39,458 bases of DNA, taken from positions 1-39,458 of the IMG/VR virus record IMGVR_UViG_3300050021_000824; one strand, written 5' to 3'. Shown in pieces: positions 10,482 to 37,290 of this stretch; positions within the stretch are counted from its first letter, which is position 1; every line of letters starts with the position of its first letter. The DNA comes from a virus. Under the pieces are notes generated by a model that made no database searches, had not been told where the DNA came from, and saw only the letters and a list, made by a program, of their open reading frames with translations. The position numbers and the translations under genes are program-made.

Positions 10482-10748
10482 ATGGTATGGAATAAATATG
10501 TGGACGGCGTGGCTCCCCATAAGGAATATTTCTTTGATATCAATGGGAATAAATTTCGCGGTAACCATAACGGCAAAGGCTGGTGTTTATATAAGATCGC
10601 TAATAGTGAATGGGAAAGTGAACGTTTAATAGCCTCGGAATTGAAGAGCAAAAAACATTTACTTGTAGAAATTAGAAACTTCACGGGAATTATAACGGGG
10701 GACATTCTTATTACCGATCGGGAAGGAAAGAAACAGAGGAATTTTTGA
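10482..10748 (+). CDS. small hypothetical protein
   Basis: An 88-residue protein rich in aromatic, Gly and Asn residues in its first half (DINGNKFRGNHNGKGWCLYK), which suggests a small beta domain. Its TGA overlaps the ATG of the nucleotidyltransferase-like gene. Function unknown. Confidence 0.5.
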   Translation: MVWNKYVDGVAPHKEYFFDINGNKFRGNHNGKGWCLYKIANSEWESERLIASELKSKKHLLVEIRNFTGIITGDILITDREGKKQRNF

Positions 10749-11275
10749 TGGAATATAAAAGAGCATATGGGATTGCAAAGAAGTATTGGGAGCTGCTGAA
10801 GCCTTTCTGTGTTGAGAAGAGGTGTAGAGTGGGTGGAAGTGTTCGGAGGCTGAAGCCGGAATGCGGGGATATTGAGATCGTATGCATCCCGCTGACGATT
10901 AAAATATTCCCTCCTGGATTGTTTGTGGCTCCGAAGATTCAGAGGCATCAGGGGTTTGTTGACCTGGTGAATTCTTTTACCAAGGTAAAAGGTGAAGCGA
11001 CCGGAAAATATACTCAGAGAATGCTGCCGGAAGGAATTAAGCTGGATCTGTTTATGTGCGATGAGAGTAACTTCGGATTGATGTGGATGCTGAGGACGGG
11101 ATCTGATTTGTTTTCTAAAAGGATGGTAACGGAAATTAAGGATCGCGGGTATTATTGCTATGATGGTTATTTGTGGAAGAGCGGGAGTCATGTAATGGTT
11201 CCGGTACCTGAGGAGAAGGATTTCTTTTCTATAACGGGGATGAAATATGTTGAACCGAAAATGAGAGTGAGTTGA
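10748..11275 (+). CDS. polymerase-X-like nucleotidyltransferase
   Basis: A 175-residue protein with the palm motif of family X DNA polymerases: GGSVRR at about residues 29-34, then GDIEIV with Asp41 and Glu43, and a third acidic residue in KLDLFM (Asp100). The C-terminal part (FGLMWMLRTGSDLFSKRM) matches the polymerase thumb-like segment. It lacks the N-terminal 8-kDa domain of full-length polymerase beta. Phage proteins of this form may add or fill nucleotides at DNA gaps, which would suit repair of transposition intermediates; that is inference. The start is ATG 10748 overlapping the previous stop. Confidence 0.72.
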   Translation: MEYKRAYGIAKKYWELLKPFCVEKRCRVGGSVRRLKPECGDIEIVCIPLTIKIFPPGLFVAPKIQRHQGFVDLVNSFTKVKGEATGKYTQRMLPEGIKLDLFMCDESNFGLMWMLRTGSDLFSKRMVTEIKDRGYYCYDGYLWKSGSHVMVPVPEEKDFFSITGMKYVEPKMRVS

Positions 11276-20924: not shown

Positions 20925-21974
20925 ATGCCACCTACCATAACACCTTTCGGTTATATCTCTCTTAGTGAGAGTGTTAATAAGATTATCACGCCTAATACAT
21001 TTGTACGTGATACACTTTTTTCAAAAAGAACAATTACACATGCAACCAAGGTAATTCAGGTTGATGTGGTTATCGGTGGAAGGAAACTACTTCCATTTGT
21101 AAAACGCGGAGATCCTGCCAAAGTCATGGAACATGTCGGCAAATCAACTCAGTTAGTTGAACCGCCATCAATCAGAGCAAAAAAATTCTTCACTCCGGAT
21201 GATCTTTTGTTTAACCGCGCTTCCGGACAATCTGTTTATGTAATAGGCGGAACCGGTGATAATGCAATTCAATCAGCCCGGATGGAAAAAATCGGTCTTG
21301 AACAAAAAGAAATCAAAATGCGTCAGGACAGAACTGAAGAGTTCATGTCTTGCCAATCCATAGCTAATGGAAAGTTTACTTACCAGGCTTCAGATCTTGA
21401 ATTTGAAATTGATTTCTTAACCCCTGGTGCAAACCTGCCTGTTCTTAATGGGGGAAATAAATGGAGTGCTAAAGGTACATGCACGCCAATTGATGATGTT
21501 GCGGCCTGGAAAAAACTTATTAAGAAAGCCTGCGGTTTAATTCCTACCAGGGCGATCATGACATCTGACATCTGGACTCTATTCCAGGCTTCCCAACAGG
21601 TTCAGGATTATTTAAATAAATGGAACATCAAGATTGGCGAAATCAATACCGAAGCTAATATCATATTGATGGGCGCTGAGAAGAAAGCAAGAATCGATAA
21701 TGTCGACTATTATGTTTATGATGAATATTATGACAGTGGAGCCGGTATTTTAAGCATGATTCCTGTAACTAACTTCATTCTTGTTTCCGATGCAGCCGAT
21801 TACCGTTTGAACTACGGCGCTATTGAAGATCTGGAAGCCGGTTCCGTTATCGGAAAATATTTTTCAAAGGACTGGTTGGAGAAAGATCCTTCCGGATTGA
21901 ATATGTTAGTTGAAAGCCATCCGCTGCCAACGATACATCAACCGGACTCAATAGTTTCTGCGAAAGTAATTTAG
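20925..21974 (+). CDS. major capsid protein, lambda gpE family
   Basis: A 349-residue major head protein of the phage cap E family (PF03864), HK97 fold. It has the typical N-terminal arm (SLSESVNKIITPNTFVRDTLF), RKLLPFVKRGDPAKVM and EPPSIRAKKFFTP near residue 90, and a C-terminal half with IMTSDIWTLFQAS and KWNIKIGEI. Length is close to lambda E (341 residues). A ribosome binding site (AAGAAGGAAC) precedes the ATG. A strong terminator follows 20 bases after the stop. Confidence 0.88.
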   Translation: MPPTITPFGYISLSESVNKIITPNTFVRDTLFSKRTITHATKVIQVDVVIGGRKLLPFVKRGDPAKVMEHVGKSTQLVEPPSIRAKKFFTPDDLLFNRASGQSVYVIGGTGDNAIQSARMEKIGLEQKEIKMRQDRTEEFMSCQSIANGKFTYQASDLEFEIDFLTPGANLPVLNGGNKWSAKGTCTPIDDVAAWKKLIKKACGLIPTRAIMTSDIWTLFQASQQVQDYLNKWNIKIGEINTEANIILMGAEKKARIDNVDYYVYDEYYDSGAGILSMIPVTNFILVSDAADYRLNYGAIEDLEAGSVIGKYFSKDWLEKDPSGLNMLVESHPLPTIHQPDSIVSAKVI

Positions 21975-21993
21975 TTCATTTTAATTTTTTACG

Positions 21994-22018
21994 ATTCCCT
22001 CCCCTGCCGGGAGGGAAT
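21994..22018 (+). terminator. strong hairpin after major capsid gene
   Basis: A perfect 10-bp stem (ATTCCCTCCC at 21994-22003 and GGGAGGGAAT at 22009-22018) with a 5-nt loop lies 20 bases after the capsid stop. Only short T-runs flank it on the plus strand, while the upstream TTTAATTTTTT would serve as a tail-side A/U context. It is a probable terminator or mRNA 3' end separating the abundant capsid message from the next genes. Confidence 0.7.
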
Positions 22019-22079
22019 TTGAATGGCAAGTTTTTGTATTGATAGTTTTTTATTTAATCATTTTTTCAGGGAACAGGTT

Positions 22080-22568
22080 ATGACAAAATTTATTGGCTTT
22101 TTAATGATTGTAATGATGTTCGCAGTTATGGGTCAGCAGCTGGAGGCTCAGACTACAAAATTAACTGAGAACGGACCGTTGAATATTTCTGATCCAACAG
22201 CTTTAACTTTTCCGTATACGGGGACTATCCATCTTAACGATACAACTTATACGTGGGGGTTTGAGACGTTCAGGCTGGATCCTGTGTTTGACTGGAGCCA
22301 TTATGTTACCTATACAAATGACTCTACGAAGATAACGTATAAGCTGCAGGGATATTATAATTATACCGCTCAATGGATAACGCTCAAAACTTTATGCGTG
22401 GATTCAGCACGGAATACTTATTACGTATTGCGGGATACTTTGCAATATAACCCGGATAGTTTGAGATTAAAGATATATGGGACTCCAATTGCGTCCGGAG
22501 GTACAATTGCCAATGGCAAGCTGACTACAGTGAAGGGTGTTCTGAAGTTTAAGCCGAAAAAGAATTAG
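22080..22568 (+). CDS. exported protein of unknown function
   Basis: A 162-residue protein with a clear signal peptide (MTKFIGFLMIVMMFAVMGQQ, then LEAQ with Gln after the cleavage Ala). I prefer ATG 22080, with an upstream CAGGGAACAGG, over the frame start at 22023 that lies in the terminator. The mature part is rich in Thr, Tyr and Asn and alternates as a beta-sandwich would (YTGTIHLNDTTYTWGFETF). No family was recognised. A protein exported to the envelope in a capsid operon is unusual. Confidence 0.55.
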   Translation: MTKFIGFLMIVMMFAVMGQQLEAQTTKLTENGPLNISDPTALTFPYTGTIHLNDTTYTWGFETFRLDPVFDWSHYVTYTNDSTKITYKLQGYYNYTAQWITLKTLCVDSARNTYYVLRDTLQYNPDSLRLKIYGTPIASGGTIANGKLTTVKGVLKFKPKKN

Positions 22569-22580
22569 CGGAGTTAAACT

Positions 22581-22949
22581 ATGAAGGCTTATTTAATATC
22601 AACTATTACGCTGATCTTGCTGCTGATGCTGAACATGTATTTGACTGTGAAGAATTTTCCGGAAAATAACACCGGGACAAAAAAGGAAATGCAGCAGAAC
22701 CAGGACCAGGGACAGACTCATTCTGTTATTGCGTTTGAAAAAGATGCCATTGCAGGAGGTGCTCAGTTTATCGGGTCTAATGCCGGTATAATTAGCCGGG
22801 AGAATTCAGCGCTGCATAAACGAAACATCACGCAGAAGTTTGACAATTTATTTTTCAAGCCTTTCGGGAATACTGAACTGGCTTGTGACCAGATTTCATT
22901 TGTAGAAAATAAATACATCTTTTGGGACGCGAAGCCGGGAGGTCTTTAA
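22581..22949 (+). CDS. membrane-anchored hypothetical protein
   Basis: A 122-residue protein with one N-terminal hydrophobic helix (residues 4-22) and a Gln/Asn-rich soluble part. The anchor lacks a clean cleavage site. No family was recognised. It follows the exported protein by twelve bases and ends before the tRNA gene. Confidence 0.5.
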   Translation: MKAYLISTITLILLLMLNMYLTVKNFPENNTGTKKEMQQNQDQGQTHSVIAFEKDAIAGGAQFIGSNAGIISRENSALHKRNITQKFDNLFFKPFGNTELACDQISFVENKYIFWDAKPGGL

Positions 22950-23037
22950 AACCTCTCCAGAAGTTTCATTACACTTTAAAAGTAATGGCACAAGTAATTA
23001 GCAAATGAAATAAAGTTCTTATTAATGTTGAAAATAG

Positions 23038-23112
23038 AGAGAGGCGTGGAAGCGTGAGGCGGGCGGTTCTTTAAATGTTTTTCAGGCTGCCGGTTTGAAG
23101 TTTCACGTCTCT
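23038..23112 (+). other. structured stretch upstream of tRNA gene
   Basis: An imperfect inverted repeat: AGAGA (23038-23042), a 2-base bulge and CGTGGAA (23045-23051) pair with TTTCACG (23101-23107) and TCTCT (23108-23112), closing a loop of about 50 nt that contains further G/C-rich pairing potential. A T-rich segment follows (TTTAATTTA). It may be a terminator for the upstream genes or a processing signal for the tRNA, which starts 17 bases later. The gap 22950-23129 holds no protein gene. Confidence 0.4.
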
Positions 23113-23129
23113 TTAATTTAGGATTACAT

Positions 23130-23202
23130 CGCGGGGTGGAGAAATTGGTATCTCGCTGGGCTCATAACCCGGAGGCTACAGGTTCAAGTCCTGTTCCCGC
23201 TA
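23130..23202 (+). tRNA. tRNA-Met(CAT), initiator (fMet) type
   Basis: A 73-nt cloverleaf: acceptor 23130-23136 / 23195-23201, D stem GAGA/TCTC, anticodon stem CTGGG/CCCGG, anticodon CAT at 23163-23165, variable loop of 5 nt, T stem ACAGG/CCTGT with loop TTCAAGT, discriminator A. Three marks of bacterial initiator tRNA are present: an unpaired first base (C1 opposite U72), an A11-U24 pair in the D stem, and three consecutive G-C pairs at the end of the anticodon stem. CCA is not encoded (CTA follows). It is carried inside a phage late operon, twenty bases before the gp36-like gene. Confidence 0.88.
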
Positions 23203-23222
23203 CTAAAATTTAGAGGAAGATT

Positions 23223-23687
23223 TTGTACTGCAGTTTGAGTGATATTGAAGAGAAGTTGGATCCGGATAAGGTCATTGAATTAACTAATGATGCTAACCGG
23301 GCGATTGCCGACATCGATTTGACGGATGAGGATGATGCTTGTCTTGTTATTGTGAACTCATGCATTAAAGCTGCAGAGACGGAAATCAATACTGAACTTG
23401 GCGCGCGTTATATGGTTCCTTTTTCTGCGGTGCCTGATCAGATTGTTATCTGGTGTACGGAGATTGCCATCTATCAGCTCTTCCTGAGAAGGAGAAGGCA
23501 GTTGATGGATGAGACGGTTCTTGCACAATATAAGCTTGTTAAGACTGCCATGAAGAGGCTTGCTGACGGTTATGGAGAACTGATAGGAGCTGTGGCGATA
23601 CAGAATGAAGCAGGAAGCGGAAATATCCAGGGGAATAAAAAAGCTATTGATAAAATATTTACTAAAAAAATGACGGATCAGTTTTAG
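23223..23687 (+). CDS. head-tail connector protein, Mu gp36-like (DUF1320)
   Basis: A 154-residue protein of the Mu gp36/DUF1320 family, a small head-tail joining protein. Family features are the YCSLSDIEEKL opening, AIADIDLTDEDD, and VNSCIKAAETEINTELGARYMVPF, followed by a helical C terminus. No ATG lies near the start; TTG at 23223 with a strong GAGGAAGAT ribosome binding site just upstream is the likely initiation codon. It would usually be next to gp37, but lysis-type genes lie between them here. Confidence 0.8.
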   Translation: MYCSLSDIEEKLDPDKVIELTNDANRAIADIDLTDEDDACLVIVNSCIKAAETEINTELGARYMVPFSAVPDQIVIWCTEIAIYQLFLRRRRQLMDETVLAQYKLVKTAMKRLADGYGELIGAVAIQNEAGSGNIQGNKKAIDKIFTKKMTDQF

Positions 23688-25465: not shown

Positions 25466-25578
25466 GTTTTTTGCAGATATGCGGAGTTCTTTTTTTAGTT
25501 GAAGCCGGGGTGGCCGTTGCTCTTGTTTGTGTTAGAATAGGCTTCTGGATACATTTTAAGTTTTGGGGATGCGACTGA
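25462..25578 (+). CDS. 38-residue single-pass membrane peptide
   Basis: A small frame starting with ATG overlapping the spanin-like stop (ATGA) and ending with TGA that overlaps the next ATG (TGATG). Nearly all of it is one membrane helix (about residues 3-25, FLQICGVLFLVEAGVAVALVC). The exact overlaps on both sides favour a real coupled gene. It may be a small lysis regulator; no homology is recognised. Confidence 0.45.
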   Translation: MSFLQICGVLFLVEAGVAVALVCVRIGFWIHFKFWGCD

Positions 25579-36270: not shown

Positions 36271-37290
36271 ATGAAGTATTTATTCATGTTATTTTTGTCT
36301 GGCATTTTATATGCACAGACAATCACCTTTGATGATCAGGGCTGGAATGCCAACCAATTGGTCGGGACAAATTTCACAATAGGTTATTTCCAATTCTCAA
36401 GTAATAAAAGTTTGCCTACTAATTATGGCTATAATCTTGACGTAAATAATATCAGCATTTATAATTTATTTACTCCAGGGGATTCTATTTCGGTTTATAC
36501 CGGGAATCTAATTAATCTGCAAAGTTTGGCCGTTTATCAGGTAAGCCAAACAAATACGGATAGTCTGCTTATAGAGGGCTGGAATGGGAATAGCAGGACC
36601 TATTCAAAAATATTTACCAACCTTAATAAATGGCAGATATTAACGCTTAATTATAATAATATCAATCGCTTCGTTTTCAAATCCAGGAATAATAATACCG
36701 CTAAAAATTTCGATTATAATTTTGACAACTTTGTTTATCAGGAGATTTCTTATACAGTGGTAGTAACTGCAAATCCGACAGCTGGAGGAAAGGTTTATGG
36801 AGGGGGCTCTTATTTGGCAGGCAGCCAGGTTCCCTTACATGCGGTTCCTTTGACTAATTATCTTTTCTCGAACTGGACGGAAAACGGAAAGGCAGTAAGC
36901 ACGATGCAGGATCCTTACATTATCTCTTTAGTCAAAGACAGAAATATTGTAGGGAATTTTATGCAGGCTGCCCCTGTTGAGTTGATGAGTTTTACCGGAA
37001 GTGTTAGCCGGAATAAGGTGAATTTGATTTGGAAGACTGCTACCGAAATAAACAATTATGGATATAATATCGAGCGTGCGGGGGCTGATGGAGTTTATGG
37101 CAAGGTGGGGTTTGTGCCGGGGCATGGGAATAGCAATATATATCATACTTATTCTTTTACGGATATACCGGGGCCAGGCGGTTATTATTACTATAGACTG
37201 AAGCAGATCGATACTGATGGAAACTTTACCTATAGCAAGGTGATTTATATTGTTATACATGCGACAATTAAACAATTAGTGGAAAAATAA
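36271..37290 (+). CDS. exported Ignavibacteriota/Bacteroidota-type surface protein
   Basis: A 339-residue protein with a signal peptide (residues 1-15, ending YAQ). Residues 18-155 form a beta-rich domain starting ITFDDQGWNANQLVG. Residues 158-232 match a divergent InlB-type repeat (VVTANPTAGGKVYGGGSY, then FSNWTENGKAVS). Residues 235-330 match the block that often precedes a type IX sorting domain in Ignavibacteriota (PVELMSFTGSV, LIWKTATEINNYGYNIERA, YRLKQIDTDGNFTYSKVI). The sorting domain itself is absent; the protein ends in HATIKQLVEK. This strongly suggests acquisition from the host. Confidence 0.75.
   Translation: MKYLFMLFLSGILYAQTITFDDQGWNANQLVGTNFTIGYFQFSSNKSLPTNYGYNLDVNNISIYNLFTPGDSISVYTGNLINLQSLAVYQVSQTNTDSLLIEGWNGNSRTYSKIFTNLNKWQILTLNYNNINRFVFKSRNNNTAKNFDYNFDNFVYQEISYTVVVTANPTAGGKVYGGGSYLAGSQVPLHAVPLTNYLFSNWTENGKAVSTMQDPYIISLVKDRNIVGNFMQAAPVELMSFTGSVSRNKVNLIWKTATEINNYGYNIERAGADGVYGKVGFVPGHGNSNIYHTYSFTDIPGPGGYYYYRLKQIDTDGNFTYSKVIYIVIHATIKQLVEK

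Follow-up and report, generated by a model that had tools for sequence, protein, structure and literature searches.

A putative phage-owned initiator tRNA in the capsid-to-Gp36 slot of a lineage of transposable phages, preceded by a boxA-like element

Introduction

Most explanations of the tRNAs carried by phages invoke codon usage or the replacement of elongator tRNAs that have been cut. Initiator tRNAs are also found in phages, including Bradleyvirinae of Stenotrophomonas and Janthinobacterium and phages of Streptomyces and Caulobacter, in which they sometimes stand alone and near head genes; in these respects they resemble the case described here, whereas the phages that carry them, unlike this one, are not transposable. 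Published accounts of Pseudomonas Mu-like phages and of Leptospira transposable prophages (one paper each) make no mention of a tRNA.

A second point of comparison is boxA. It is established that boxA prevents termination by Rho on the untranslated RNA of E. coli rRNA operons (PMC4807359, PMC10250234, PMC5725501), and boxA elements outside rRNA are known (PMC5725501). Here we describe a virus sequence of 39,458 bases (IMG/VR record IMGVR_UViG_3300050021_000824; the whole of this stretch is referred to as the window) in which an initiator-type tRNA lies among the structural genes of a transposable phage, behind a boxA-like element.

Results and discussion

Identity of the tRNA

ARAGORN, run over the whole 39,458-base window, reported a single tRNA, tRNA-Met(CAT) at 23130-23203(+), and Rfam RF00005 matched 23130-23202(+) with 57.2 bits (E 6.6e-10), indicating an intact tRNA gene:

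23130..23202, plus strand: initiator tRNA-Met (CAT) gene, CCA not encoded (ARAGORN, Rfam, initiator profile, compensatory pairs across three phage homologues)

A sequence-only reading of this DNA had assigned the tRNA to the initiator type on three hallmarks, and all three are present: the C1xU72 mismatch, A11-U24, and three G-C pairs at 29-31:39-41. In standard numbering, the acceptor stem is CGCGGGG/UCCCGCU with C1 and U72 unpaired, the D stem is GAGA/UCUC and includes A11-U24, and the anticodon arm reads CUGGG-CUCAUAA-CCCGG, so that G29, G30 and G31 pair with C41, C40 and C39; the T arm is ACAGG-UUCAAGU-CCUGU, and the discriminator A73 is followed by CTA rather than by an encoded CCA. We built three nucleotide profiles from phage-contig tRNAs, leaving the window out: an initiator profile (110 distinct phage-contig initiators), a CAT elongator profile, and a profile of other tRNAs (274 tRNAs). 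The window tRNA scored 62.3 bits against the initiator profile, versus 30.3 for CAT elongators (Met/Ile) and 26.6 for other tRNAs, which confirms its sequence-based assignment to the bacterial initiator type. It is like bacterial tRNA-fMet in its unpaired 1-72, A11-U24, G29-31:C39-41, CAU anticodon and A37, and unlike it in its U28.G42 wobble, its lack of an encoded CCA, and its Levitt pair, which is A15-U48 instead of the G15-C48 found in 105 of 114 surveyed initiators.

Genomic setting

The window carries a MuA-type transposase (phrog_310, E 2.4e-75) with an AAA_22 ATPase in the next gene, as well as Mu Gam (PF07352), GemA (PF06252), Mu Gp36 (PF07030), Phage_tail_S and an E-type major capsid protein, bearing out the earlier claim that the phage is transposable. 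With Mu-like transposable phages it thus shares the transposase, AAA ATPase, Gam, GemA, Gp36 and tail morphogenesis genes, and it differs from them in having a tRNA within the structural operon. The minus strand carries the portal and terminase genes. The capsid and tail genes are on the plus strand, as is the tRNA gene, which lies between the capsid and Gp36 genes, in agreement with its earlier placement inside that operon. The slot between these two genes comprises:

20925..21974, plus strand: major capsid protein (E type), upstream border of the slot (PF03864, E 6.5e-54; phrog_29)
21993..22019, plus strand: hairpin directly after the capsid gene (fold z -4.6)
22023..22568, plus strand: small secreted-type protein, function not assigned, inside the slot (ORF without PHROG or Pfam match)
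22581..22949, plus strand: small membrane-anchored-type protein, function not assigned, inside the slot (ORF without PHROG or Pfam match)
23223..23687, plus strand: Mu Gp36-type head-tail connector with a TTG start, downstream border of the slot (PF07030, E 1.5e-18)

No gap in the plus-strand structural operon is larger than the one containing the tRNA (22950-23222, 273 nt), and 20 bases separate the tRNA from the TTG start of the Gp36 homologue.

Elsewhere in the window, a phage protein with a DNA polymerase beta thumb domain (10745-11275; 55% identity in the relative G066, introduced below) represents a nucleotidyltransferase kept in the early region, and a secreted-type repeat protein (36271-37290) has a Divergent InlB B-repeat domain. 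The end segment of the latter resembles, by eye, proteins that we take to be common in Ignavibacteria and Bacteroidota, a hint as to the host.

Presence and absence in relatives

A capsid search with the single window protein yielded one relative, L002, which has no tRNA anywhere in its 28 kb; single Gp36 and portal protein queries recovered no relatives. We reached a second genome, G066 (IMGVR_UViG_2582580697_000003), by scanning for initiators with a U28.G42 anticodon arm and then searching those records for a transposase, and a third, L166 (IMGVR_UViG_3300048592_001373), through a capsid alignment search, which made its selection independent of tRNAs. The genes of G066 are collinear with the window over the whole genome. 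In both of these phages the interval from the capsid protein gene to Gp36 contains a lone initiator tRNA, even though their capsid proteins are 42% and 48% identical to that of the window, and the hairpin directly after the capsid gene is at the same place in both (z about -3.7) and hence is kept in all three tRNA carriers. That two such distant relatives share the arrangement makes the tRNA look like a genuine part of the phage rather than stray host DNA.

No tRNA is present at the capsid-Gp36 locus in L002, L168, L169 and L170, that is, in four of the seven relatives, so that its presence is patchy and the tRNA is not essential. In the capsid tree the carriers do not form one clade: G066 and L166 group with the tRNA-less L168, and the window stands apart. 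This pattern may reflect ancestral presence followed by losses or repeated gain at one site, and the shared slot and motif (described below) favour the former.

With or without a tRNA, the locus in these relatives consists of phage head genes and not of a host chromosome fragment, one of two outcomes that the sequence-only reading had said would count against it; the other, an elongator or Ile(CAT) score, did not occur either (30 bits versus 62 for the initiator profile). An origin as a host fragment, a misassembly or an elongator/Ile(CAT) tRNA is consequently exceedingly improbable, given these scores, the phage head genes on both sides and the repetition of the arrangement in relatives.

Relatives also bear on the suggestion that the tRNA serves weak start codons such as the TTG of the downstream gene. 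This gene starts at the TTG at 23223, with an in-frame TAG at 23211, AGAGGAAG before the TTG and the next ATG at codon index 63, and the window TTG-Tyr-Cys-Ser-Leu aligns with ATG-Tyr-Ser-Ser-Leu in G066 Gp36. The start is ATG in L166 as well, so both tRNA-bearing relatives dispense with the weak start; the tRNA does not go with it, the suggestion is not supported, and the TTG looks like a local change in the window sequence.

Selection on the tRNA

None of the 20 stem pairs is broken in any of the three phage tRNAs (window, G066 and L166; 60 of 60 stem cells paired), and six of them are altered on both sides, a number equalled or exceeded by only 1 of 500 shuffles. When partners were slid by 1-3 columns as a control, at most one pair was doubly changed. 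Positions 1 and 72 do not pair in any of the three (C.U in the window and G066, A.A in L166), A11-U24 and the three G-C pairs 29-31:39-41 are invariant, and both the CUCAUAA anticodon loop and its stem are canonical throughout. The U28.G42 wobble is found in all three, versus 6 of 118 in the survey, and since it was part of the pattern that found G066, the only carriers unaffected by this bias are the window and L166.

These data bear on the view that the tRNA is a captured host gene carried as a neutral passenger. Phages readily pick up tRNAs, and the sequence is host-like (89% identical to a Spirochaetota chromosomal initiator in a D-arm pattern scan of genome contigs), so an ultimate host origin long ago is likely. 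Recent neutral capture, however, does not fit the shared slot, occupied in spite of 42-48% capsid identity, or the compensatory changes, and we regard the passenger explanation as improbable.

Similarly improbable, in our estimation, is that the cloverleaf is kept mainly as a punctuation signal at which RNase P and RNase Z would cut between the abundant capsid message and the downstream genes. Such a signal would be expected where the tRNA is found in all three phages, after the capsid gene and before Gp36, and the tRNA-less gaps are either fully coding (L169, L170) or rich in other hairpins (L002). Any tRNA would suffice for this purpose, but the three phages all carry initiators that have lost none of the initiator marks, and the retention of these marks while the rest of the molecule drifts argues for use as an initiator and not as a processing signal alone.

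The main rival to the explanation that we favour below is a role in anti-defence, in which the phage tRNA replaces a host initiator that has been destroyed or modified by a toxin such as a VapC-type nuclease. According to work cited in PMC10264068, VapC toxins of enterobacteria and Leptospira attack initiator tRNA, and the same paper carries the proposals that phage tRNAs counter tRNA depletion and that loop changes are a mark of nuclease evasion. The attack on initiators reported there, taken together with the depletion proposal, lends this rival some weight, and a patchy presence among relatives would fit an advantage that depends on host defences. Against it, the canonical loop and stem in all three phages give no sign of resistance changes, and Shigella phages tend not to encode tRNA-fMet (PMC10264068). 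We consider the replacement of a toxin-cut initiator unlikely, while ranking it above the passenger and punctuation views.

A boxA-like element upstream

Two elements precede the tRNA within the gap:

23015..23032, plus strand: boxA-like element GTTCTTATTAATGTTGAA (shared with relatives; match to rrn boxA; pattern enrichment)
23038..23114, plus strand: long hairpin separating boxA from the tRNA; its upper part contains a second GTTCTTTAA core at 23066 (fold)

A GTTCTT-type motif lies upstream of the tRNA in the window (position 23015, AAAGTTCTTATTAATGTTGAAAATAG), in G066 (CGTGTTCTTACAAATATTGAATTTAAAT) and in L166 (AAAGTTCTTTAAGTATTGAAAATAAAAAT), and L002 has it in the same gap without a tRNA (ATAGTTCTTATACATTTTGAAAAATC), which suggests that its role may concern the untranslated gap rather than the tRNA itself. 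We compared it with rRNA operons on Bacteroidota plasmids, and the motif of the window and its relatives closely matches the rRNA boxA of Persicobacter (AAAAGTTCTTTGAATGAATGTTCG before 16S and AGAAGTTCTTTGACATATTGAGAGAGC farther downstream, beyond the 16S gene) and of Flavobacterium (AAAAGTTCATTGACATATTGAG). This match fits a host within the Bacteroidota/Chlorobiota/Ignavibacteriota group. The likeness to rRNA boxA and lambdoid nut boxA extends to the GTTCTT core and to flanks as in the Bacteroidota rrn spacer boxA AAGTTCTTTGACATATTGAG, and the motif is near the gamma-proteobacterial consensus GYTCTTTAANA (PMC5725501). Unlike those elements, it is located amid the genes of a phage late operon, ahead of a tRNA.

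The pattern GTTCTTWN6TTGAA matches twice in the window against 0.04 expected, and across 176 loci it is found in five distinct places, three of them in the capsid-Gp36 gap. A boxA core lies within 120 nt upstream of all three tRNAs, for which chance gives about 1e-4, a value for a motif that was noticed first and tested after. Upstream of 136 survey initiators there are 8 core matches (0.50 versus 0.23 per kb in the background), three of which belong to the window lineage; phage initiators do not in general come with a boxA core. The other match to the pattern in the window, at 25486-25503, falls in a separate non-coding gap of the late operon that precedes the gene at 25563.

A few bases separate the end of the motif from the tRNA in G066 and L166; in the window the two are set apart by a strong hairpin. 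The fold of 23028-23129 has -33.6 kcal/mol (z -3.9), and the long pre-tRNA hairpin, found in this form in the window only, could be a processing or terminator structure. We looked for a sigma-70 promoter or a simple terminator before the window tRNA and found neither. The corresponding gap of L002 contains about 280 nt of non-coding, strongly folding RNA behind the boxA-like motif (L002:11915-12195; z -4.9 for the second half), for which Rfam gave no match.

Initiator tRNAs in other phages

The canonical initiator pattern occurs in at least 117 IMG/VR stretches. Among the matches listed, 48 of 115 analysed were away from contig ends with at most two tRNAs in the sequence examined, and their neighbours included head, packaging, tail and integrase genes. 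Many phage contigs of 15-60 kb have a lone initiator, so the earlier statement that initiator tRNAs are known in a few large phages was too narrow. INPHARED contributed 49 records with similar sequences, including a lone tRNA-fMet in Bradleyvirinae phages of 58-62 kb.

Searching contigs with a transposase profile revealed two further, unrelated lineages of transposable phages with an internal lone initiator. The tRNA of G007 (L133:14038-14113, IMGVR_UViG_3300002461_000293) has U28.G42 in a genome whose gene content is unrelated to that of the window, and lies between an early ORF without assigned function and the lysis/packaging genes. The other lineage, G061/G063 (L163:11713-11788, L165:8840-8915), is of Bacteroidota type, and a Bacteroidota-type TAnnTTTG promoter element TATATTTG ends 9 bases upstream of its lone initiator tRNA. 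Among the initiators of non-transposable phages, three annotated solo examples (L123, L124, L126) showed no boxA element in the 130 nt upstream.

Other contigs yielded variants of the theme. L137, L139, L140, L141, L145 and L152 are related and have in common an odd initiator-type tRNA (TGTCAGGGTAGAGCAG...), the sole tRNA in the sequence examined. The tRNA-Met at L004:10959-11031 lies 5 bases after a head-tail connector gene and has an initiator-like D arm; we did not count it as a solo initiator because its positions 1 and 72 are U1-A72 and just one of the three diagnostic pairs in the anticodon stem is G-C, features that would suit a hybrid or decayed initiator. The tRNA of L073/G030, beside host genes ahead of a prophage repressor, was rejected as a phage gene and assigned to host flank.

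Phage initiator tRNAs are thus already known, and the conserved slot with its boxA-like element is the new part; we found no description of this combination in the open-access full-text literature.

A proposed role in late translation initiation

We favour, with moderate confidence, a functional initiator tRNA owned by the phage, co-transcribed with the late genes, helped across its gap by boxA antitermination and used to top up the initiator pool, in a capsid-Gp36 slot probably kept in a lineage of transposable phages of Bacteroidota/Ignavibacteriota-group hosts. This explanation builds on features read from sequence comparison, namely the initiator identity, the slot in three phages, the covariation of the cloverleaf, the boxA-like element in front and the shared strand. 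The tRNA would be transcribed as part of the late operon, and the boxA-like element would load host NusB/S10, allowing RNA polymerase to traverse the long, untranslated and structured gap with Rho termination averted. The tRNA would then be excised by RNase P and RNase Z, or by enzymes like them, leaving a separate capsid message and a message from Gp36 onward, and host enzymes would supply CCA, methionine and the formyl group. An additional initiator could in this way raise the capacity for translation starts during bulk synthesis of structural proteins.

Bolder, and entertained only tentatively, is the idea of a dedicated initiation module, in which a late-operon initiator tRNA behind a copied rRNA boxA would couple structural transcription to the rRNA-type Nus machinery, and would either raise initiation capacity or outlast defences that disable the host initiator.

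A lone initiator cannot serve codon compensation, and it therefore offers a clean test of initiation capacity, defence bypass and transcript processing. This question can be tested in a temperate phage thanks to the conserved slot and the boxA-like element, which together may point to rRNA-type antitermination in a phage late operon.
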